DNA from: Bacillus sp. F19
GTDB lineage: Bacteria; Bacillota; Bacilli; Bacillales; Bacillaceae
Length of the DNA: 64,000 nt
Direction of reading: 5' to 3'
NCBI GenBank assembly: GCA_023823795.1
Contig: CP085711.1
Location: 372,001 to 436,000, forward strand
Positions 9,233-52,172 of the stretch are shown here, piece by piece. The stretch's first letter is position 1. Each line of letters opens with the position of its first letter. A model generated the notes under the pieces. The model did not search any database. It had not been told where the DNA came from and worked only from the letters and a program-made list of their open reading frames with translations. Both the position numbers and the translations under genes were made by a program.

Positions 9233-9385
9233 AAGGTTGTGTTCGCAAAAATTGTTGTGTTCCGTAGATAGACATATACGTCTATCATAAGGAAATTGTG
9301 CTCTTTTCTATTAAAAATCGCTCGGAGAATTCCCTAATATAACGAGAGAACAAACTAAATAATATTGAAAAGCTCAATGTTTATA

Positions 9386-9431
9386 CTTGGCTTTCACCTT
9401 TAGCGATTTCAAGGCCAATGACTGTACCCAT
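9386..9431 (-). pseudogene. Possible IS110-type transposase N-terminal scrap
   Basis: Read on the minus strand from 9431 the first residues are MGTVIGLEIAKGESQ, which resembles the opening of IS110-family transposases (V-GLD-SKGES), then a stop. Only about 15 codons remain. The rest of 9233-9484 shows no gene. Low confidence because the match is so short. Confidence 0.3.
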
Positions 9432-9484
9432 AAAATAACACTTTACTAGATTACCGGCAGCAATTTAAACAGTCTAAAGAACAA

Positions 9485-10030
9485 ATGGAAGAATAATGGC
9501 ATTCTGCTGTACGTGATGTCTCCTTAATTGAAAAAGCAGTTCTTTCACCTGTAGAGACAATCCTTTTAATGACTGGGGATATTTTTACGATTGAGCATTG
9601 TGTAGAAATGAGTAGAAAACACAACAAGTCTATTTTCTTACATGTTGATTTAATAAAAGGGATAGCTAATGATCGAGAAGGAATAAAGTACTTGTCGAAA
9701 AAGGTAAAGCCAGATGGGATTGTTTCAACAAAAAATCAATTAATTCAAGCTGCTAAAAAAGAGGGGTTATTAGCTGTTCAGCATTTATTTATGATTGATA
9801 CACATGCATATGAAAATGGGGTTAAGAATATTGTAGATGTAAAACCCGATGCAATTGAAATAATGCCAGGATTGATGCCAAGGGTCATCCGTGAGTTTTA
9901 CGACAAAATTGATTGCCCTATTATCACAGCGGGATTAATTAAACATGCACATGAAGTTAGAGAAGTTGTGGAGGCTGGAGCCCATGGAGTAGCCATTGGT
10001 GAACCTGAGTTATGGGATCTAATACTATAA
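9485..10030 (+). pseudogene. glpP: GlpP-like glycerol-3-phosphate-responsive antiterminator, early stop
   Basis: From 9569 the frame encodes 153 residues of the G3P_antiterm family (PF04309): LHVDLIKGI, PDGIVSTKNQLI, AVQHLFMIDTHAYENG, IEIMPGLMPRVIREF, PIITAGLIKHAHEV. The family N terminus (HSAVRDVSLIEKAVLSPVET, roughly codons 6-25) lies upstream in the same frame but after ATG GAA GAA TAA at 9485-9496, so a stop interrupts the natural start. The ATG at 9569 has no good ribosome binding site and would drop the first strand. Known members bind glycerol 3-phosphate and leader RNA to prevent termination. Either a pseudogene or an assembly/sequence error; context with two leader elements downstream suggests it was, or is, functional. 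Confidence 0.65.
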
Positions 10031-10195
10031 GTACTATTTTGAATATGACAAATAGTAGGTAGAATAAACTAATTATTAATAATAATTAATAAATTATTAA
10101 CAAATTAACAATACTATTTTAATCTAAGAGTCTTAGAATTAAGTTATAAATTTCGAATGCCTAACCACTACAAGAAATTAATAATTATATATTGC

Positions 10196-10312
10196 TAACT
10201 GCCAAGGGTGGAGTTAATGGAGAAAACCCAGGTATAGCTACTAGTTCTACAAAAATACACGAATGCTATTTAGGCATGTGTTTTTTGGGACTGGCTATAC
10301 TTGGGTTTTTTG
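10196..10312 (+). promoter_or_regulatory. Leader element A: conserved box plus long terminator hairpin
   Basis: A conserved box (ACTGCCAAGGGTGGAG at 10198-10213, then TGGAGAAAA) precedes a very long stem: ACCCAGGTATAGC pairs with GCTATACTTGGGT, continues through CTAGTTC with GGACTGG, and ends in a loop with ACAC and GTGT arms; TTTTTT follows at about 10306. A homologous element lies at 16836-16945. The stems differ in sequence but keep pairing, which suggests selection on RNA structure. By position next to a GlpP-family gene, I infer a GlpP-type antitermination target; this was not proven. Confidence 0.7.
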
Positions 10313-10377
10313 TTATTCTTTTCTAGTCAGCGGATTTAGGGGGTGGGAATGATTACCGAAAACCAACTAGAGGAAAT

Positions 10378-10728
10378 GAAAGTGAGTTTAGTAACAAAGC
10401 TATTTTTATTAAACTAAGTGTCTGTTTACTTATCTATCATCTTACTAAGCCTGCTTACTCATACAAAAAGAATTAGATGGTGATGTTCAAACTAATGATA
10501 GATCAACTACTAACTATTATGAGGAGGGTGAGGAAAAATGAAATTCTTAATGGCTATCAGCTAGATAGACAATTTCGTGCTTAGGTACAGATGGGAAGTA
10601 AGGTCTCTGGTCATGAGCGTGTATTATCTAAATCATCAAATTTACTACCCAAATACTATTTTAATGCAGGGGGTGGGGGTAGAGGCTCTGAGAATTTACT
10701 ATTTGATCATCTTTCTCATTTGCTAACG
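10378..10728 (+). pseudogene. Decayed small secreted-protein reading frame
   Basis: Between leader A and the next gene, joined frames read as a signal-peptide-like start (MKVSLVTKLF at 10378, then LSVCLLIYHLTKPAYSY) followed by polar text, but with a frame change near 10417 and stops. Well-formed ribosome binding sites (AGGGGGTGG near 10340, GAGGAGGGTGAGG near 10522) precede tiny ORFs of 8-22 codons. I do not recognise a family. It may be a gene remnant or long 5' leader of the downstream gene. Confidence 0.3.
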
Positions 10729-10779
10729 TAGCTCCGCCCCTTTTTTCACTGCAAATTTAGATGAAAGGTTTGAGCAACT

Positions 10780-11868
10780 GTGAATAAAATTATTTCATGC
10801 TTTGCACTGTTTATATGCTGTTTTATGATGATGCTTATCCCTTTTAAGGTTATGGCCCACACAGATAATAGTGAAGGTTATTCAAAGATTACAATGGATC
10901 GAGAAAATGAAGAGCTACATGTAGAACTTTCTATTGATTATTTTGAAATGGGAAGGTTGATTGATTTTGGGGTAAATCCAGGTTCTTCTTCGGCTCAGCT
11001 CAGTAAGGCATTAGAAGAGAAACGTGATGCTTTATCAGAGTATCTTTCATCACATTTTGAAATTTCGGTGGATGGAGAAAGGGTGGACGGAGAGCTCATC
11101 TCTACAGAAGTAGAAAAGAGACTGGATCGAGATTACGCAAAGATATCTCTAGATCTTCCTATAACTGATTTAGATTCGGCGATTCAAATTCATTACAATA
11201 TCTTCTTTGAGGATAATGACCCAATGCATAGAAACATTATGACATATGAGATTGGAGAGAAAAAAGGGCAGTTTGCTTTTCAAGCAGAAGAGAGGGAACT
11301 TCAGATTGGTGAGGAGACTCTTGTTAGCCAAATCATCCGGTTCATTGAAATTGGTTTCCACCATATTATGATAGGTATCGATCATATTTTGTTTGTTATC
11401 GCACTTGTTTTGGGGACTCGAAAATTTTCAGATGTATTGAAAGTTATTACAGTCTTTACAATAGCCCATAGTATCACAATTGGACTAACAGCTATGAAAT
11501 TTCTCAATCTACCACCAGAGATTATTGAGCCGCTCATTGCGTTAAGTATTGCGTTTGTAGCTGTTGAGAGTATCCTTGGATTTTCATCAAAATTCAGGTT
11601 TGCCGTTGTGTTTCTTTTCGGGTTAATCCATGGAGTTGGATTCGCAGGTGCTCTACTGCTAAATAATGAAATAACATGGCAATCTTTATTGTCCATCCTC
11701 TCATTTAATGTAGGTGTTGAAGTGGGACAAGCTCTAATTATTGTGCTTTTGTTTCCTCTGCTTCTTTATATCCGAAAATACAAATGGTCTTTTTACATTC
11801 ATGGAGCGACAACGATGTGGATCTTAGGAATGGGATTATTTTGGTATTTTGAGCGCATTTTAGGATAA
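10780..11868 (+). CDS. HupE/UreJ-family membrane protein
   Basis: The 362-residue product begins with a signal peptide (to about residue 26, VMAHTDN), has a soluble extracellular part of about 155 residues, then six or so membrane segments. The HupE/UreJ_2 marks are clear: HHIMIGIDHILFVIALVLG, FTIAHSITIGL and LIHGVGFAGALLL, where conserved histidines and aspartate suggest metal (nickel or cobalt) handling in this family. Start is GTG at 10780. It lies about 470 bases after leader A and 83 bases before the giant phosphoesterase, so both are probably one transcript. A role supplying metal to that enzyme is speculation. Confidence 0.8.
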   Translation: MNKIISCFALFICCFMMMLIPFKVMAHTDNSEGYSKITMDRENEELHVELSIDYFEMGRLIDFGVNPGSSSAQLSKALEEKRDALSEYLSSHFEISVDGERVDGELISTEVEKRLDRDYAKISLDLPITDLDSAIQIHYNIFFEDNDPMHRNIMTYEIGEKKGQFAFQAEERELQIGEETLVSQIIRFIEIGFHHIMIGIDHILFVIALVLGTRKFSDVLKVITVFTIAHSITIGLTAMKFLNLPPEIIEPLIALSIAFVAVESILGFSSKFRFAVVFLFGLIHGVGFAGALLLNNEITWQSLLSILSFNVGVEVGQALIIVLLFPLLLYIRKYKWSFYIHGATTMWILGMGLFWYFERILG

Positions 11869-11951
11869 TACTTGGGCCGAAATAGGAGGTGGTGCTTTCA
11901 TCTAGTTAGGTTTTTAAAAGAAACATGAACTCAAGAATTGGAGGAGAAACG

Positions 11952-14900
11952 ATGGAATTTTTAGAAGGAAAAGGGAAAATAACTAAACAAAAACTTAAAG
12001 TAATTACCGCTGTTATCATGTGTGGACTAGCTGTTGCTGCTGTAACTAAGCCGGTTATTGCTGAAAACACTAATGTAACCGTTAAGGGTGTTGTGTTTGT
12101 TGATAAAAATGAAAATGGAACCCTTGATAGTAACGAACAAGGGATTCCTAATGTTTCCGTTTCAGATGGGAAGACTGTTACTGTTTCAGACGAAGAAGGA
12201 AATTATACATTAACTACAAGTACAGATAGACGACAAACGGATATTGTTTTTGTAACTGTTCCTAGCGGATATAGCGTACCAACAGATGAGAACAAAACAC
12301 CTCAGTTTTATAAACTGCTAGGCAACCTCAAAGCAGGTGAAACAAGTGAACAAAACTTCGGTTTGTTACATACGCCGGACAATAAAAATCCGAACTTTAG
12401 CTTTGTCAATATAGCAGATGTTCACGTAGAAGCTGGGAGCACTAATAATCGCGAACGGTTTACAAATCAGCTTTCTCAAATCAACGAATTAACAGGAGAT
12501 CCAGCCTTTATTGCTGTAAGTGGTGATTTGACAAACCGAGCAACAGATGCTGAATTCCAGGATTATACAGCGAGTACAGCTACATCTACTCTTCCGGTAT
12601 ATCCTGCAATGGGGAACCATGATTTTGCACCTGGCTCCGACTACAAAACAAGAGTTGATCGTTACCGAAACTATTTAGGACCAGAGTGGTATTCATTTGA
12701 TTATGGAAATCGACATTTTGTAACATTGGAGAACAACATAGGCTTTTCAGAACCAGAACAATTAGAGTGGTTGAAACAGGATCTTGCCCAAAATGCAAAG
12801 GACAAGGAAGTCGTCGTATTTGTTCATAAGCCATTAAATACACCACAAACTCCATCAGCAGATAGTACTAAGCAGTTTATAGATCTTCTTAGTCAATATA
12901 ATACACGCCTTGTGATGGTAGGACACACGCATGTAAATGATGTAGCACAAGACACCATTCCTGGTGCAGACCATGTAACATCTGTTTCTAGTGCTTACAC
13001 GATTGATCAATCACCTAATGGATTTAGAATGGTTACTTTCCAAGGTGACGAACAAGATCCGAAATTTAAAATGTATGATGTGAAAAAAAGTGCTTCTATT
13101 GTACATCCGGCAAACAATAGTGAAATAGCTCAAGATAAAATCAACATATTGGTAAATGCTTATAACACTTCAAGTAATGTTAAAAGAGTAGAATACCGTG
13201 TGGATGGTGGTCCATGGAAAAAGCTTAAACAAAGCAGCGGTATGAGTTGGTATGGCACATGGGATGCCCGTAAAGCAAAGTTAAGAAAGCATCATATGGA
13301 AGTCAGGGTGACTGATGATGCCGAAAATGTTTGGTCAAGAATTTCACAATTTTCAATTGTAGATGATGACAAAAAAATTACACCAAAGAGCGGAACTGAC
13401 TGGACGATGTTCCACGGTGATGCTCAGCATACGGGTTATACAAAGGATACACTTGAAGCAGGTCTGAATTTTAGCTGGACTTACCGTACACCAGGAACAA
13501 TTCTTACTTCTTCACCAGCAATTGTAGATGAAATTGTTTATATAGGAACACGTGATGAAGACAGCAATGAACATCATGCCATTCATGCGGTGGACCAAAA
13601 AACTGGCAAAAAGCTGTGGCAGGTAAAGGCTGATGCTCAAGTACAATCTTCTCCTGCAGTTGCCGACGGAATCGTATATGCTTCGTCTATCCGAGGTACT
13701 TTATATGCAATGGATGCAAAAACAGGAAAAATAATTTGGGAGAAGTCAGTAGGTAAAAATGAAGTGCAACGTGCATGGATGTACTACTCTCCAACAATCG
13801 ACAATGGAGTCGTGTATCAGGCATATAGTACGGGCAGTGGTGGAGCGATGATGGCACTTGATGCTATTACGGGAGAAGAAATATGGAATGCACCTTTAGC
13901 GGGAGGCTGGATTGTTGAATCAACACCAGTTGTTCAAGATGGAAAAGTTTATGTTGGTGCAGACGGAGGTTGGTTGATTGCCCTTGATGCCTTAAATGGT
14001 AAGGAAATATGGAAACAAAAACCTGCGGGAGGCTGGATGCATTCAATGCCATCCATCTCAAAAGGTCGTGTTTATATGGGATATCAAGGTGGATTAGTAG
14101 TTGCACTTGATTCTTCAACAGGTAAAGAACTGTGGCGCTACAAGAGCTCAGACTCATCTTATATTCACGGAGGGGCAACTGGGTCGTCTGCTGCAGTCGC
14201 TGATGACGTTGTTTATATGGGATTCCCAGATGGAAATGTGGTTGCCTTAGATGCAACAACAGGTTCATTGAAATGGAAGTACCGAACACAAGGTGGTATC
14301 ATCTCATCTGCAGCAGTCAGCGGTGATGTAGTATTTATCGGATCGAATGATGGAAACCTTTATGCATTTGATCGTAGTACAGGACAGCCTTTATGGCAGC
14401 ATGAAATTGGAGCTTGGGTAGCATCATCTCCAGCTATTTCAGGAAATACTTTAGTTGTCGGTGCCCTTGATGGAAACCTGTATGCTTTCACTCCTGGAGG
14501 GAAAAAGGTTCAAAAGTGGCCCCGAGCTACTGGAAAAGTAAGTGATGCTATTACAGGAAAACCTGTTAGTCGAGCTACGATCGTGGCAACAAACGGTGCA
14601 GGTGAAACTAAAACGACAGTGGCAAATGATAATGGTGAGTATGTTCTTGGTCTACAGCCAGGAAAATATACTCTCACAGCCAAACGTAGAGGGTTCTTGA
14701 ATGGTACTTCAGCTTCTACTGAAATGGTAACTGGTCAAGTTGAAACAATTGACTTGGAACTAGATGAGATTACCGAGCCAGTTGCTGGTAAGTCCCAGGA
14801 GACACCTGATTTTAATTCAGGGAGCCCACGTTTGGACACAACGAATGGTGAAGAATATCACTATATTATGAATAATCGAATTCAAGCAACTATTTCTTCA

Positions 14901-16613
14901 ACGATTGGTGCTAACAACGTTGCGGGAACTTTCCAGCCTGGATGGCTATCAGATATCGCTTTACTAGATAATAATGCATCAGAGACGCTGGATTGGAGTG
15001 AGTGGATCCTTTCCAAAACAATGAATGATCCGAAACTGCCTTGGAATCGTCAGGGACAATGGTTATCTTTACCCAATATCAACGTTGATGGTGATACAAT
15101 TAATGCATCAGGACAAGCGCAAATTGATCCTGCAATTAAAACGAAAGTTACTTACAAAGCTTTGCCGAATGCACCAGTAGCAAAGTTTACTTTACAGCTT
15201 GATAATACAGGAACAGAAGATTTTAAGGGGTATTTTCAGTATTTACTAGATCCTGACAGTTCTGACGACACTGCATTTGTTCCAGGAATATCAGCTGCAA
15301 ATCCTGGCTTCATTACATCAGGATGGGCAGGAAACTACATTTATGACGGACCAAAAACAGCTATTTCTAGCCCGGCCCATGGAATTGCTTGGGTTAACGA
15401 TCAGCCGACTGGATTAAGTGCTTTTGGTTATATTTTTGGGGTATCATTTGATGCAAGTGTAGCAGCAGGTGAAAAGAAATCTATTAGCTGGTACCACATC
15501 ACTGATTATCCTGCTAATGGAAGTAGCCCAGCATCAACTATTGCCAATTGGGCTGCAAATCTTGGTACTTTAGATCCTGAAGCAGCAGAGCAATCTCGTA
15601 TTCAGGGAAGTGTCACTGATTCTAGTACAAATAAGCCAGTTGAAGGAGCTTTAGTAGAGGCTCTAAATAAAGAAAATAAAGTAGTTGCATCTTCAACTAC
15701 CAATAATGAAGGAAAGTATCTGTTTGCTTTGCAGGACCCCGGAAGTTATTCCGTTCGCGCAAGTCGCCTTTCTTATGAAAATGCGACAATTACTACTATA
15801 ATTAGTGAAGGAGAAACAAAGTCTGTAGATGTTTCTCTAAAGCCAGTAACAGTTAACGCAGGTACTGGAAAGATTCTACCAGGTCCTGTCTCTGAAGGAT
15901 CTATTCAGGACATTATGATGGAAAACAGCAGATTAGCTATGACGATTGCTGCAGTTACCCAGGACGCACAGCTTCCTGGAGTGACGAAAGGAAAGCCAAT
16001 CGATATTTCAGCTAAGGGCTTTCAAGATCAAGTGGACTGGTTTAATCTTCCTTATATATCGACAGCTCAACCATTGGGTCCAGATGCATGGAGGCAATTA
16101 ACTGTAAAAAGTGAAGAAGTAAAAGTAATGGAATCTTCTTCTGAACGTGCTGTGGTAAGTGCGATCGGTACATCCACAGAAGATCCAGAAATCAAAGTAG
16201 ATACTACTTATACGATTTTACCGGATCAAGAGTGGATAACAGCTAAAACAGTGTTTTCCAACACTGGTCAGGATTCCAAATCTGTTTGGATAGGTGACGC
16301 TTTGGATTATGATGGAGCTGGACAAAAAAGCGGTGTAGCCGGACACGGTACGATTACGCTAGCCTATTCTGATCCGCAGGAGTTCACGCCAACTGAACCA
16401 TGGATGGGAATGTCTGGTACAGATAGGCAAACGATTGGTCTCGTTTATTCAGGAATTACTTCCGGGTTAAAAGTTTATGGTAATGGAAGCTGGATTATGA
16501 GCCGACAAAATGTAGAACTAGCTGCAGGTGGTAGTCATACGATGGAGCGAAAAATCGTAGCCGCACCTAGTGGCACAGAAGATCCGTTTTCAGTTCTGAA
16601 TTCTATTAAGTAA
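11952..16613 (+). CDS. Secreted multidomain calcineurin-like phosphoesterase with PQQ propeller
   Basis: The product has 1553 residues starting at ATG 11952 (GGAGG at 11940-11944; an ATG at 11925 is in frame but poorly placed). Order seen: signal peptide (to about 38), SdrD-B-like domain with VDKNENGTLDSNEQGIPNV (about 41-95), metallophosphoesterase (about 150-345: IADVHVE, VSGDLTNRA, MGNHDF, FVHKPL, GHTHVND), Ig-like domain (about 385-470), PQQ/Trp-Asp-like beta-propeller with repeated YAFDRSTGQPLWQ-type blades (about 483-846), two carboxypeptidase-regulatory-like domains (about 858-936 and 1216-1298), each followed by a beta-sandwich region. It resembles YvnB-type exported phosphohydrolases. 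Substrate unknown; a secreted phosphodiester or phosphomonoester hydrolase is likely. No sortase motif at the C terminus. Confidence 0.88.
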   Translation: MEFLEGKGKITKQKLKVITAVIMCGLAVAAVTKPVIAENTNVTVKGVVFVDKNENGTLDSNEQGIPNVSVSDGKTVTVSDEEGNYTLTTSTDRRQTDIVFVTVPSGYSVPTDENKTPQFYKLLGNLKAGETSEQNFGLLHTPDNKNPNFSFVNIADVHVEAGSTNNRERFTNQLSQINELTGDPAFIAVSGDLTNRATDAEFQDYTASTATSTLPVYPAMGNHDFAPGSDYKTRVDRYRNYLGPEWYSFDYGNRHFVTLENNIGFSEPEQLEWLKQDLAQNAKDKEVVVFVHKPLNTPQTPSADSTKQFIDLLSQYNTRLVMVGHTHVNDVAQDTIPGADHVTSVSSAYTIDQSPNGFRMVTFQGDEQDPKFKMYDVKKSASIVHPANNSEIAQDKINILVNAYNTSSNVKRVEYRVDGGPWKKLKQSSGMSWYGTWDARKAKLRKHHMEVRVTDDAENVWSRISQFSIVDDDKKITPKSGTDWTMFHGDAQHTGYTKDTLEAGLNFSWTYRTPGTILTSSPAIVDEIVYIGTRDEDSNEHHAIHAVDQKTGKKLWQVKADAQVQSSPAVADGIVYASSIRGTLYAMDAKTGKIIWEKSVGKNEVQRAWMYYSPTIDNGVVYQAYSTGSGGAMMALDAITGEEIWNAPLAGGWIVESTPVVQDGKVYVGADGGWLIALDALNGKEIWKQKPAGGWMHSMPSISKGRVYMGYQGGLVVALDSSTGKELWRYKSSDSSYIHGGATGSSAAVADDVVYMGFPDGNVVALDATTGSLKWKYRTQGGIISSAAVSGDVVFIGSNDGNLYAFDRSTGQPLWQHEIGAWVASSPAISGNTLVVGALDGNLYAFTPGGKKVQKWPRATGKVSDAITGKPVSRATIVATNGAGETKTTVANDNGEYVLGLQPGKYTLTAKRRGFLNGTSASTEMVTGQVETIDLELDEITEPVAGKSQETPDFNSGSPRLDTTNGEEYHYIMNNRIQATISSTIGANNVAGTFQPGWLSDIALLDNNASETLDWSEWILSKTMNDPKLPWNRQGQWLSLPNINVDGDTINASGQAQIDPAIKTKVTYKALPNAPVAKFTLQLDNTGTEDFKGYFQYLLDPDSSDDTAFVPGISAANPGFITSGWAGNYIYDGPKTAISSPAHGIAWVNDQPTGLSAFGYIFGVSFDASVAAGEKKSISWYHITDYPANGSSPASTIANWAANLGTLDPEAAEQSRIQGSVTDSSTNKPVEGALVEALNKENKVVASSTTNNEGKYLFALQDPGSYSVRASRLSYENATITTIISEGETKSVDVSLKPVTVNAGTGKILPGPVSEGSIQDIMMENSRLAMTIAAVTQDAQLPGVTKGKPIDISAKGFQDQVDWFNLPYISTAQPLGPDAWRQLTVKSEEVKVMESSSERAVVSAIGTSTEDPEIKVDTTYTILPDQEWITAKTVFSNTGQDSKSVWIGDALDYDGAGQKSGVAGHGTITLAYSDPQEFTPTEPWMGMSGTDRQTIGLVYSGITSGLKVYGNGSWIMSRQNVELAAGGSHTMERKIVAAPSGTEDPFSVLNSIK

Positions 16614-16835
16614 GAATTCTTTCACTCTTTTAAAAAAATCAGTTGTAACCTTGAATCGAATATAAAACTCAGGTGGTGACACACATAGTGTTGCTACCTG
16701 CAATAAATAAATTGAAATCAGAAAATCCATTCGTTACTAATTCTTTTCCTAGCGAAAATATAAAATTAACAATAATGTGCTAAATTATATATAGAAGAAA
16801 TTGCAACAGAAATTTTATATAGCATACTAAAAAAC

Positions 16836-16945
16836 TACCAAGGGTGGAGTATTGGAGAAAATCCAGGTATAGTTCTTAGTCCGTTATGACATAAACTCAA
16901 AGAGTTTGTGTTTATTATGACTAACTATATTTGGGTTTTTTCTGT
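16836..16945 (+). promoter_or_regulatory. Leader element B: second copy of box plus terminator hairpin
   Basis: The box ACTACCAAGGGTGGAG is at about 16834-16849, then TTGGAGAAAA and the stem CCAGGTATAGTT pairing with AACTATATTTGG, extended by AGTC/GACT and ACATAAACTC with GAGTTTGTGT, ending in TTTTTT at about 16935-16940. It shares box, spacing and stem foot with leader A but uses different bases in the upper stem. An AAAGGAGG follows at 16951 before a four-codon TTG frame, and the HAD gene starts at 17075. The remainder of 16614-16835 shows nothing I can name. Confidence 0.7.
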
Positions 16946-17074
16946 TTTTAAAAGGAGGTTACTTATTGGACGAAAACTAGCTTATCAAAGTATCTATTAC
17001 TTAACAAAAAAAGATAATTAAGTAGAGGCTTTATGTACTAATAGCAACAAGACTAGGTTAAGAAAAGGCAGTGA

Positions 17075-17875
17075 ATGATAAAAATGACAATGAATATAGC
17101 GAAATGCACCACATTTATTTTTGATTTGGATGGATCTGTTTATTCAGGTAGTCAGATGTACCCAGGAGTGAAGAAGTTACTACGATTATTGCATTTTAAT
17201 CAAAAACAAATTTACTTTTTAAGCAATAATTCAACCGATACTGCTGAAACTATTCGAGAAAAGCTGAGTGGAATGGGCCTAGCTGTTCAGGAATCTTCTA
17301 TACTAGTAGCCACAGAATTAGTAGGAGACTACTTGCTAGAAAAGTACGGTGTCGTTAAAGTGAAAACGTTTGGCACTCCTGCACTCCAACATTCTATTAA
17401 ATCTGCAGGTCACATCATTTCACAGGTAGGTTGTAAGGATCCTTGTGATGTAGTAGTGGTGGGGCGCGATCCTTCCTTTACATATGAAAAGCTATATGAT
17501 TGCGCAAGAACCCTAACAGTTGGTGTTAAACTAGTGGCAGTTAATCCTGATCTTTATCATCCGGGAGAGGATGGAAGTAGGGTACCAGAAACTGGGGCAC
17601 TTATCTCAGCAATACAGGCGGTATCAGGTGTTACGGAGTTAGAATCTGTAGGGAAACCCTATTGTTATTCATTTAAAAAGATTAAGGAACTATCATCTGT
17701 TGAACCTCAGTCTTGTATCATGATTGGGGATAACCCTTACACAGATATTCAGGGAGGATACTTAGCTGGAATGCATACAGTTTGGATTTCCCATGGACAA
17801 CCATTTCCTCTAGATCTTGGGTTCAAGCCTGATATTACAATACCATCCATTGGTGAATTAGTTCATTACTTATAA
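17075..17875 (+). CDS. HAD-IIA family sugar/glycerol-phosphate phosphatase
   Basis: The 266-residue protein has HAD motifs: FDLDGSVYSG (motif I, aspartate nucleophile), FLSNNST (motif II), K in SVGKPYCYSF (motif III) and MIGDNPYTDIQGG (motif IV). The C2a cap between motifs II and III places it in the NagD/AraL/PGP subgroup. Such enzymes dephosphorylate sugar phosphates, glycerol phosphate, PLP or nucleotides. Because it sits behind a leader of the suspected GlpP type, glycerol phosphate is a reasonable guess but only inferred. Alternative ATG starts at 17084 and 17090. Confidence 0.85.
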   Translation: MIKMTMNIAKCTTFIFDLDGSVYSGSQMYPGVKKLLRLLHFNQKQIYFLSNNSTDTAETIREKLSGMGLAVQESSILVATELVGDYLLEKYGVVKVKTFGTPALQHSIKSAGHIISQVGCKDPCDVVVVGRDPSFTYEKLYDCARTLTVGVKLVAVNPDLYHPGEDGSRVPETGALISAIQAVSGVTELESVGKPYCYSFKKIKELSSVEPQSCIMIGDNPYTDIQGGYLAGMHTVWISHGQPFPLDLGFKPDITIPSIGELVHYL

Positions 17876-17888
17876 TTAGGAGAGGTTT

Positions 17889-18011
17889 ATGGGCGCTCAA
17901 GGTTATATCGGGATAAAAAGAATAAAGTATCTCATTTTGGTGTGCTTTTTTAGAAGAAAGTATAATCTGGTCTATATAAGTAAAAGGGGAATTTATACAA
18001 TAATTATATAA
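17889..18011 (+). CDS. Short ORF behind the HAD gene, unrecognised
   Basis: An ATG at 17889 follows TAGGAGAGG and opens 40 codons beginning MGAQGYIG and ending in a basic, hydrophobic tail. It starts 14 bases after the HAD stop, so it may be the stub of a following operon gene cut short by the nearby IS remnant. No family recognised. Confidence 0.25.
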   Translation: MGAQGYIGIKRIKYLILVCFFRRKYNLVYISKRGIYTIII

Positions 18012-18021
18012 AGTAAAATGG

Positions 18022-18697
18022 TATGTCAACACTAAACTAGACAGTTTTCCTAAGGTGTAAATTTTTGTATTCTCGTGGGCTTAAATAACCCAATGTTCCA
18101 TGAATTCTTGTTCCATTAAACCAGTTCACATAATCAAATAGTTCCCTCTTTAAGTCGGATAGTGATTCGAAGTGGCGTTTTTTTACAAACTCTGTCTTGA
18201 TAATTTTAAATGTTGCCTCCGCAACCGCATTATCATATGGGCAGCCTTTCATACTCATAGAACGCTTGATTTCAAACGTTTCTAAGGCTTCGTCAATCAA
18301 TTTATTCTTGAATTCACTTCCACGATCCGTGTGAAATAACTTGATCTTGTTTAGATCAATTTTTATCGAAGAAATCGCTTGATACACAAGCTTTGCGTCC
18401 TTCTGTGGACCAGCACTGTATCCGATAATTTTCCGATTATAAAGATCAAAATACACATATGTAATGCCATTTTTTCTCGACTCTCACATACGTTAAATCA
18501 CTGACAACCACGTCGTAAGCTGCTTCTTGTCTGAACTCACGGTTTAGCTCATTCTTTTGCTTCGATTCATTACACGTTGAGACATGGGGTTTGAACTGGG
18601 CAATGGTATAAGTGGACACTAGGCCTGTTTTTGATAAATCACAGCAAAGAGAGGGTATCTTCGGGGAAATTCGTATTTCCAATAGTAAAAAGCTCAA
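18022..18697 (-). mobile_element. IS3-family (IS150-like) insertion sequence remnant
   Basis: On the minus strand two frames hold the C-terminal two thirds of an IS3-type OrfB integrase: SDLTYVRVEKKWHYICV (first Asp), then after a frameshift near 18446-18456 YFDLYNRKIIGYS, HTDRGSEF (second Asp) and AVAEATFKIIKTEF (Glu), followed by GTRIHGTLGYLSP. The first orf and the upstream IS end are missing; homologous text fades near 18640. The downstream end near 18022 has TGTCAACACTAAACTAG, a likely terminal repeat. Not able to transpose by itself. Confidence 0.85.
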
Positions 18698-22852: not shown

Positions 22853-23165
22853 TCCATAGTGGCCCCTGAAATCCAGAATCGTTTCCATACCCCTTATAGG
22901 GTGTATAACATTCTCACCATGTTCATTCAACTCAAGCGCCATGATTTACACCACCCCCGCGGGTAGGCTTTCATCAACTTAACCTGGTACGGTAAATTCT
23001 CACGCCTTTTCGCCGAGCTTATAACACTATCTTTCTTACTAATCCAGTGCTATTCGACTAAGAGAGAACCCTTCAGGGCGTTACCCCATCATTTGATTCT
23101 TCGATATAATCCTTCAGTTCCGAAAGGAACTGTCTAGCCTTTACCTGAGTAATGTGACCACCCTC
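22853..23165 (-). mobile_element. Structured-RNA remnant resembling group II intron domain I
   Basis: No coding frame fits this stretch, which is richer in G and C and full of short stems. On the minus strand it reads AAGCTCGGCGAAAAGGCGTG, GAAAGCCTACCC with GGGGGTGG, and ends GGTATGGAAACGATTC ... GGGGCCACTATGG. The pattern resembles the folded 5' part of a bacterial group II intron. The last 41 bases recur with few differences at 53191-53230, near the intron fragment at 51-52 kb. Assignment is by resemblance; a covariance search is needed. Confidence 0.45.
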
Positions 23166-52063: not shown

Positions 52064-52172
52064 GATTAAGTGGAGAGCCGTATACATGGAGACATGTACG
52101 TACGGTTCGGGGGAGAGTTCTTGGAAACCTGTCATGGAAACATGATAAGGCGCTGGGTTCTTATCCTACTAT
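51320..52172 (+). mobile_element. Group II intron, 3' part only
   Basis: The segment holds the end of the intron-encoded protein and then the ribozyme core. Domain V is exactly 34 bases at 52075-52108, beginning GAGCCGTATACATGG and ending GTACGGTTC, with the AGC triad and GNRA-like tip region. Domain VI follows and the intron appears to end near 52172 (CCTACTAT). The 5' ribozyme domains and the reverse transcriptase are missing. It is fused to conE on the left and to an NlpC/P60 gene on the right. Confidence 0.85.

Follow-up and report, generated by a model that had tools for sequence, protein, structure and literature searches.

Candidate GlpP-type antitermination leaders upstream of phosphohydrolase genes in Bacillus sp. 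F19

Two leaders and the genes behind them

The DNA considered here is a stretch of 64,000 nucleotides (nt), called the window below, from Bacillus sp. F19 (GCA_023823795.1, contig CP085711.1, positions 372,001-436,000 of the forward strand); it lies on the 507 kb second contig of a genome of 5.59 Mb. One locus in the window holds a gene of the GlpP antiterminator family (PF04309), a hupE gene followed by a very large phosphoesterase gene, and a HAD phosphatase gene, with one long, T-tailed RNA leader in front of hupE and another in front of the HAD gene. We consider it very probable that these leaders are GlpP-type conditional terminators of phosphohydrolase genes under the control of a GlpP-family protein, because 12 matches that a leader model had not been trained on were found in a wide genome search and because the predicted antiterminator stem covaries. 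The RNA switch of the glycerol genes, together with extra copies of its sensor, appears to have been placed before genes for enzymes that degrade phosphate esters.

Each leader opens with a box, found by pattern matching: CAAGGGT-GGAG-TTAAT-GGAG-AAAA at 10203-10226 (+) in leader 1 and CAAGGGT-GGAG-TATT-GGAG-AAAA at 16839-16861 (+) in leader 2. The two boxes, already noticed in a preliminary description of this DNA, are the only exact matches in the 5.59 Mb genome (reversed control, 0), and a search with three mismatches and fixed spacing returned leader 2 again and one other site. The box lies within a predicted antiterminator hairpin, at 10206-10229 (+) in leader 1, where GGGU pairs with ACCC around a loop of GGAG-N5-GGAG-AAA (supported by covariation over 35 leaders), and at 16842-16864 (+) in leader 2, where GGGU pairs with AUCC through one G-U pair. 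The terminator hairpins with their T tails follow at 10225-10311 (+; z -7.9 for the hairpin alone) and at 16861-16941 (+). In each leader, then, the loop of a short hairpin carries GGAG-N4/5-GGAGA, and the 3' strand of this hairpin doubles as the 5' arm of a long terminator with a T tail.

Both leaders contain an intrinsic terminator, and the folding is far from what composition would give: the fold energies are -49.1 kcal/mol for leader 1 and -44.6 kcal/mol for leader 2 (z -7.0 and -6.5), and in each case none of 200 shuffles folded as well. Taken alone, the antiterminator hairpins are worth only -4.8 (leader 1) and -2.3 kcal/mol (leader 2) against -38.8 and -30.5 kcal/mol for the terminators, and a bound protein or another helper should therefore be needed for the short hairpin to win. 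The earlier statement that the stems differ in sequence while keeping their pairing holds for the inner part, which differs between the leaders and still pairs, whereas the outer ~12 pairs are nearly identical. A possible -10 element, TATATT at 10188-10193 (+), stands before leader 1; it is weak, was picked by eye and is not listed by the consensus promoter scan.

Profile matches confirm the genes that had been assigned to the two leaders. Behind leader 1, a HupE/UreJ-type membrane protein with a DUF6702-like N-terminal part is encoded at 10780-11868 (+; HupE_UreJ_2 profile, PF13795, 137.3 bits against a cut-off of 24.5), followed at 11925-16613 (+) by a metallophosphoesterase of 1562 amino acids (aa) that matches PF16371 and PF00149 (the latter, calcineurin-like phosphoesterase, with 56 bits against a cut-off of 21.5) and carries PQQ-type repeats (PF13360) and carboxypeptidase-regulatory-like domains. 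Its metal motifs can be read in the translation, and we take them to be the D-x-H, GD, GNHD and GH-x-H motifs of calcineurin-like phosphoesterases; a hydrophobic N-terminal stretch, judged by eye, suggests that the protein is probably secreted. This enzyme is rare, being found in 2 of 229 genomes of the order at E <= 1e-40 with the source genome counted. Behind leader 2, the gene at 17075-17875 (+) encodes a HAD-IIA phosphatase (TIGR01460, 134 bits against a cut-off of 100.15), whose relatives in the PDB include the glycerol-3-phosphate phosphatases 7po7 and 4i9f, though others are nearer.

The PF04309 gene in front of leader 1 is unmistakable (184.6 bits against a cut-off of 27) and broken. 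The preliminary description started its frame at 9485, which does not stand: the ATG there reaches a TAA after three codons, and no ATG, GTG or TTG follows in frame between that TAA and 9569. The sequence at 9506-10030 (+) is coding-like from 9506, with the in-frame TAA upstream of it and its first usable start at 9569, and beginning there would cost the protein its first barrel strand. An alignment with three intact relatives shows a small frame-breaking gap at this strand, and the profile match begins only at position 4. The remainder of the gene is well conserved, with a ratio of nonsynonymous to synonymous substitution (dN/dS) of 0.07-0.11 against the three relatives; the gene was thus either damaged recently or serves in a truncated form.

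Directly behind the HAD gene lies a fragment of an integrase-core (rve) transposase (18037-18456, -), a sign of mobile DNA at the edge of the locus. Group II intron matches (RF02004 and RF00029) occur elsewhere in the window, at 22923-23117 (-) and 52073-52169 (+). A plasmid search with window positions 9300-18000, sensitive to near matches only, gave no match.

A leader design common to glycerol and phosphohydrolase genes

The genome has four PF04309 genes, three of them full length, and these three lie on the other, main contig: one canonical GlpP and two intact copies of the type found in the window, which we call GlpP2. The canonical gene belongs to a glpP-glpF-glpK-glpD cluster. Behind the first intact GlpP2 gene come tatA, what looks by eye like the remnant of a tatC gene, and a gene for a PhoD-type phosphatase; behind the second come genes for a HAD-IIA protein, HupE, a metallophosphoesterase and a GDPD-type protein. 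The tatC-like stretch (locus L009, 6770-7060, with tatA and phoD on either side) looks broken by eye, although PhoD of Bacillus is known to be a substrate of the Tat system.

One leader design precedes glpF, glpD, tatA-phoD and the intact GlpP2-HAD-hupE operon as well as hupE and the HAD gene of the window, so that the recognition element is common to the window and to the glycerol genes. A covariance model, R1, built from 12 leaders of the GlpP2 (phosphohydrolase) type and therefore untrained on glpF and glpD leaders, matches the glpF leader of locus L010 at 25.2 bits. Extra copies of the leader with no gene after them stand behind phoD (L009, 9535-9615; L014, 9292-9390; L020, near 13680-13780); the extra copy is full length in genome G001 and decayed in the source genome, and in G006 it lies beside a GlpP2 fragment with phoD missing.

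The short stem covaries. When 1.26 Mb of retrieved sequence was scanned for a box followed by a T-tailed hairpin, 92 matches resulted, duplicates included, from which 40 leaders (35 distinct) were picked by hand as the main set. Across the 35, the two sides of the stem match with a score of 13.03, compared with 8.60 (standard deviation 0.52) when the sides are swapped among leaders; when each stem type is represented once (n = 15) the values are 12.53 and 8.47 (standard deviation 0.72), and in neither set did any of 20,000 shuffles do as well. The 38 distinct intergenic matches, with no hand picking, score 11.58 against 7.87 (0 of 5,000 shuffles). An alternative hairpin that would exclude the terminator is accordingly supported by compensatory change. 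The terminator stem of the GlpP2-type leaders is paired in 93.7% of cells, with a covariation score above all 500 shuffles, the rows being related. A joint alignment of the leader types was set aside for modelling, since their linkers differ in length and thereby displace the stems by one or two columns.

R1 was then run on genomes, a search for which the preliminary description had called. Among 81 family genomes, five contained matches at E < 1e-8, 13 in all, and none of these strong matches lay away from GlpP2 or phosphohydrolase loci; three were new to the model, G067 having two of them and G001 the third. Of all 13, eleven (two of the three new ones among them) lie directly upstream of a PhoD gene, a hupE-phosphoesterase pair, a HAD gene or an operon led by GlpP2; the PhoD genes behind the two G067 leaders show 51 and 76% identity to that of L009. 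A further 14 weaker matches (E 0.39-0.91) occur in as many family genomes at a distance of ~3.13 kb from the glpP start, and the one read among them (G051) is a glpD leader. Two more weak matches, on contig 6 of G008 and in G079, stand in other surroundings and look like chance, and the other weak family matches are antisense to known hairpins or a decayed copy behind phoD.

The wide search covered 397 genomes of the order and 398 of the phylum, with nine candidates scored per genome and strict filters. At E <= 0.1 it returned 13 matches outside the source genome, 12 of them untrained (the one in G629 was a training sequence), and all 13 adjoin genes of glycerol or glycerol 3-phosphate metabolism: GlpK, GlpF, a GlpD-like oxidoreductase, GlpP, GDPD or HAD-IIA. 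In G712 and G840 glpK precedes the leader, and the next gene of G840 opens with a FAD-binding motif (by eye); in G542 an open reading frame (ORF) with no Pfam match separates the leader from glpK. A PF04309 gene was recognised within ~4 kb of nine of the 13 (the other four are those of G284, G542, G675 and G747). Among the family genomes, G067 has its leaders with a canonical-type GlpP only. In the Sporomusa GlpP2 operon, also untrained, a looser form of the leader lies just upstream of GlpP2 (E 2e-4, 20 loci searched).

The GlpP2 clade

Among the 59 PF04309 rows of a tree, the window protein falls in a clade of 11 (support 99/93), GlpP2, which includes Sporomusa silvacetica, a Bacillota metagenome-assembled genome, G001, G063, G629, G230 and G242. 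The tree has several long, unstable rows, and only this clade and the placement of the G067 protein are used from it. A scan of genome contigs with a first GlpP2 alignment, by narrow peptide patterns, yielded two loci only, both of them informative. In the strict sense (>280 bits) GlpP2 is present in three of the 81 family genomes, and the sample of 398 phylum genomes adds one, G629.

The neighbours of the clade are consistent. A gene for PhoD, a calcineurin-type metallophosphoesterase or an NPP-type enzyme lies within 10 kb in 11 of 11 rows, and a HAD-IIA gene within 10 kb in nine of 11 (that of L013 recognised by eye). Other PF04309 genes adjoin ugpCAEB with GDPD, or glpFK/glpD. A single locus of G063 reads leader-PhoD-GlpP2-leader-HupE-phosphoesterase-leader-HAD-PhoD, which is the arrangement of the window with a PhoD gene on each side. 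In L116 and L117 (G230 and G242, other families of the order), operons of GlpP, HAD, an NPP phosphodiesterase and a Ugp importer are each led by a tandem-GGAG element. Five more loci, L118-L122 (G257, G105, G165, G280 and G379), have PF04309 beside another HAD-IIA-like gene (31-32% identical) and genes for an ABC importer whose permease is long; this is a further type of GlpP-linked phosphate-ester operon.

Taken together, the regulon (PhoD/TatA, calcineurin-type phosphoesterase with HupE, HAD-IIA and GDPD, and elsewhere NPP and a Ugp-type importer) looks like one for the liberation, import and dephosphorylation of glycerophosphate. Our guess is that the physiological substrates are phosphodiesters, for instance teichoic acid or the head groups of phospholipids, and, equally as a guess, HupE may supply metal to the phosphoesterase.

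Proposed regulation and relation to known systems

In the mechanism that we infer, which concerns protein binding, ligand and direction of regulation, the long terminator hairpin would form in the nascent RNA when no signal is present, and transcription would stop before the hupE-phosphoesterase pair and the HAD gene. A GlpP-family protein loaded with its ligand (glycerol 3-phosphate in the known case, and by assumption also for GlpP2) would bind the tandem GGAG loop and hold the short hairpin; with the 5' arm of the terminator thereby engaged as the 3' side of that hairpin, the terminator would be blocked and the genes read. Liberated glycerophosphate entering the cell would then load GlpP2 (or GlpP) and raise the enzymes that free, import and dephosphorylate more of it.

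Several observations weigh against this reading, or against parts of it. No intact regulator gene adjoins the window leaders; the phosphohydrolase regulon proposed from the start is upheld by the element before glpF and glpD and by the R1 matches and weakened by the broken GlpP copy next to it. Ten of the 13 strong family matches are R1's own training sequences; two of the 13, one in G006 and the new one in G001, are orphans that lie at the phoD locus with no gene behind them; and the strict filters of the wide search are likely to have caused misses. G067 has two leaders while its sole PF04309 gene is of canonical type, with no GlpP2 (a draft with 7% contamination). Conversely, G178 has a hupE-phosphoesterase pair (L190, 6589-11406, -) 61 and 74% identical to that of the window, and no GlpP leader and no GlpP2 were found in its 19 kb. 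The covariation controls also show an excess, if a smaller one: 8.62 against 6.69 for 13 distinct matches within ORFs (38 of 5,000 shuffles) and 7.64 against 6.45 for 237 distinct motif occurrences taken with no terminator condition (0 of 5,000), both controls including some true leaders. Within the 12 GlpP2-type leaders alone the signal of the 4-bp antiterminator stem is weak (91.7% paired, a level reached in 13 of 500 shuffles, and a covariation score reached in 88 of 500). The consensus scan found no promoter before the leaders; the scans showed no excess over shuffled sequence (promoters 21 against 27.3, terminators 5 against 4.7). Lastly, ~470 nt with no reading frame of at least 60 aa separate hairpin 1 from hupE, a gap in which the consensus scan, limited to loops of 3-8 nt and blind to both leader hairpins too, found no plus-strand terminator.

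The broken GlpP2, G067, G178, the orphan leaders, the 470-nt gap and the lack of a clear promoter would all fit a regulon that is spreading and decaying. With a broken copy in the window, the likeliest regulator is one or other of the intact GlpP2 pair on the main contig.

The alternative that survives best, which we hold to be possible and still clearly the lesser choice, keeps the RNA mechanism and changes the signal: GlpP2 would answer another small phosphate ester, for example one derived from a nucleotide or the sn-glycerol 1-phosphate of lipoteichoic acid or phosphatidylglycerol, which the HAD phosphatase would remove. The residues of the clade speak for a change of this kind, since strand 5 (IQR-F) has His in 10 of 11 GlpP2 rows where 46 of the 48 other rows have Arg, and strand 8 reads AVG or AIG in most GlpP2 rows and TTS or TSS in canonical GlpP of Bacillaceae; the wall and lipoteichoic acids of B. 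subtilis are moreover described, in passages of PMC7086022, as enantiomeric glycerophosphate polymers. Against it stand the recognition element held in common with glpF and glpD and the leaders of G067, which occur with a canonical-type GlpP only. In its fullest form the idea would have GlpP2 re-specialised for another glycerophosphate (for example sn-glycerol 1-phosphate) with a dedicated scavenging regulon, HAD-IIA as the phosphatase for that enantiomer, and one phylum-wide class of covarying tandem-GGAG antiterminators; we think this whole unlikely.

It is similarly doubtful that canonical GlpP alone serves all leaders, with the GlpP2 copies redundant or decaying. The broken window copy, the fragment in G006 and the leaders of G067 with no GlpP2 would suit such a state; however, GlpP2 is under purifying selection (dN/dS 0.07-0.13 in six pairs) and is linked to the same kinds of genes even in distant hosts. 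Far less credible is that the hairpins are ordinary constitutive terminators of the preceding genes, repeated by copying: the near-identity of the outer stems and the orphan copies behind phoD are what copying would leave, yet the box ahead of the hairpin is conserved, covariation of its stem extends over many leaders, most strong R1 matches (11 of 13) stand before operon starts, that of GlpP2 itself included, and distant leaders of different sequence retain the design. A protein-free riboswitch or an attenuator controlled by a small RNA, which the long, structured leader and its conserved sequence block might recall, is the least plausible of all, since a transcript starting at the by-eye A+T-rich element would have ~20-30 nt before the terminator, too few for an aptamer, since Rfam release 15 gave no family at gathering score (and only weak, unrelated matches) for the window leaders or five loci with such leaders, and since leaders of established GlpP targets have a matching element.

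If antitermination by GlpP-family proteins is accepted for these leaders, GlpP control reaches beyond glycerol use to phosphohydrolases, several of which are probably exported, and has a separate paralog clade for them, and the GlpP antiterminator hairpin gains a precise, covariation-supported definition that can be searched across Bacillota. If the ligand does differ, a metabolite from the turnover of cell wall or lipids would have its sensor named. In the open-access literature searched (titles and the starts of abstracts, with most subscription papers outside it), we found no GlpP control of PhoD, HAD or calcineurin-type enzymes and no tandem-GGAG consensus, and the element is unrepresented among the matches found in Rfam release 15. 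The kind of system is thus known, and the paralog clade with its phosphohydrolase regulon and covarying tandem-GGAG antiterminator is new to that literature; the box itself may already be in print in the original papers on GlpP and its RNA, reportedly those of Rutberg and colleagues on antitermination in B. subtilis. The overlap of a protein-stabilised hairpin with a terminator arm is also how antiterminator RNAs of the LicT/SacY type work, the sequences of those proteins and RNAs not being known to be related to those of GlpP.

According to passages of PMC9604022 and PMC7430163, known GlpP binds glycerol 3-phosphate, and transcription then passes the terminators before glpD, glpFK and glpTQ. 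A phosphodiesterase gene, glpQ, is already within the GlpP regulon according to PMC9604022, and GlpQ and PhoD are implicated in wall teichoic acid degradation in PMC7086022. The view that phosphate-ester hydrolases are a new type of GlpP target therefore has to be narrowed to the PhoD, HAD and calcineurin-type targets and their paralog clade. With the B. subtilis GlpP system the leaders described here have in common a PF04309 regulator, a conditional terminator in the 5' untranslated region and a phosphodiesterase gene in the regulon (one, glpQ, in B. subtilis), and the GGAG-N-GGAGA box before glpF and glpD was read in this genome and its relatives rather than in the B. subtilis leaders. The PF04309 genes linked to ugpCAEB and GDPD in related Bacillaceae offer a parallel, a paralog accompanying a glycerophosphodiester uptake operon, and one such locus (L059) has a degenerate form of the same leader (a weak match, E 0.33); these proteins belong to a different clade, and HAD, HupE and PhoD were not seen beside those examined. 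In contrast to B. subtilis GlpP, GlpP2 forms a separate paralog clade with PhoD/TatA, the calcineurin-type phosphoesterase, HupE and HAD-IIA as its targets, and the terminator hairpins of the window type are longer than those at glpF and glpD of the same genome.

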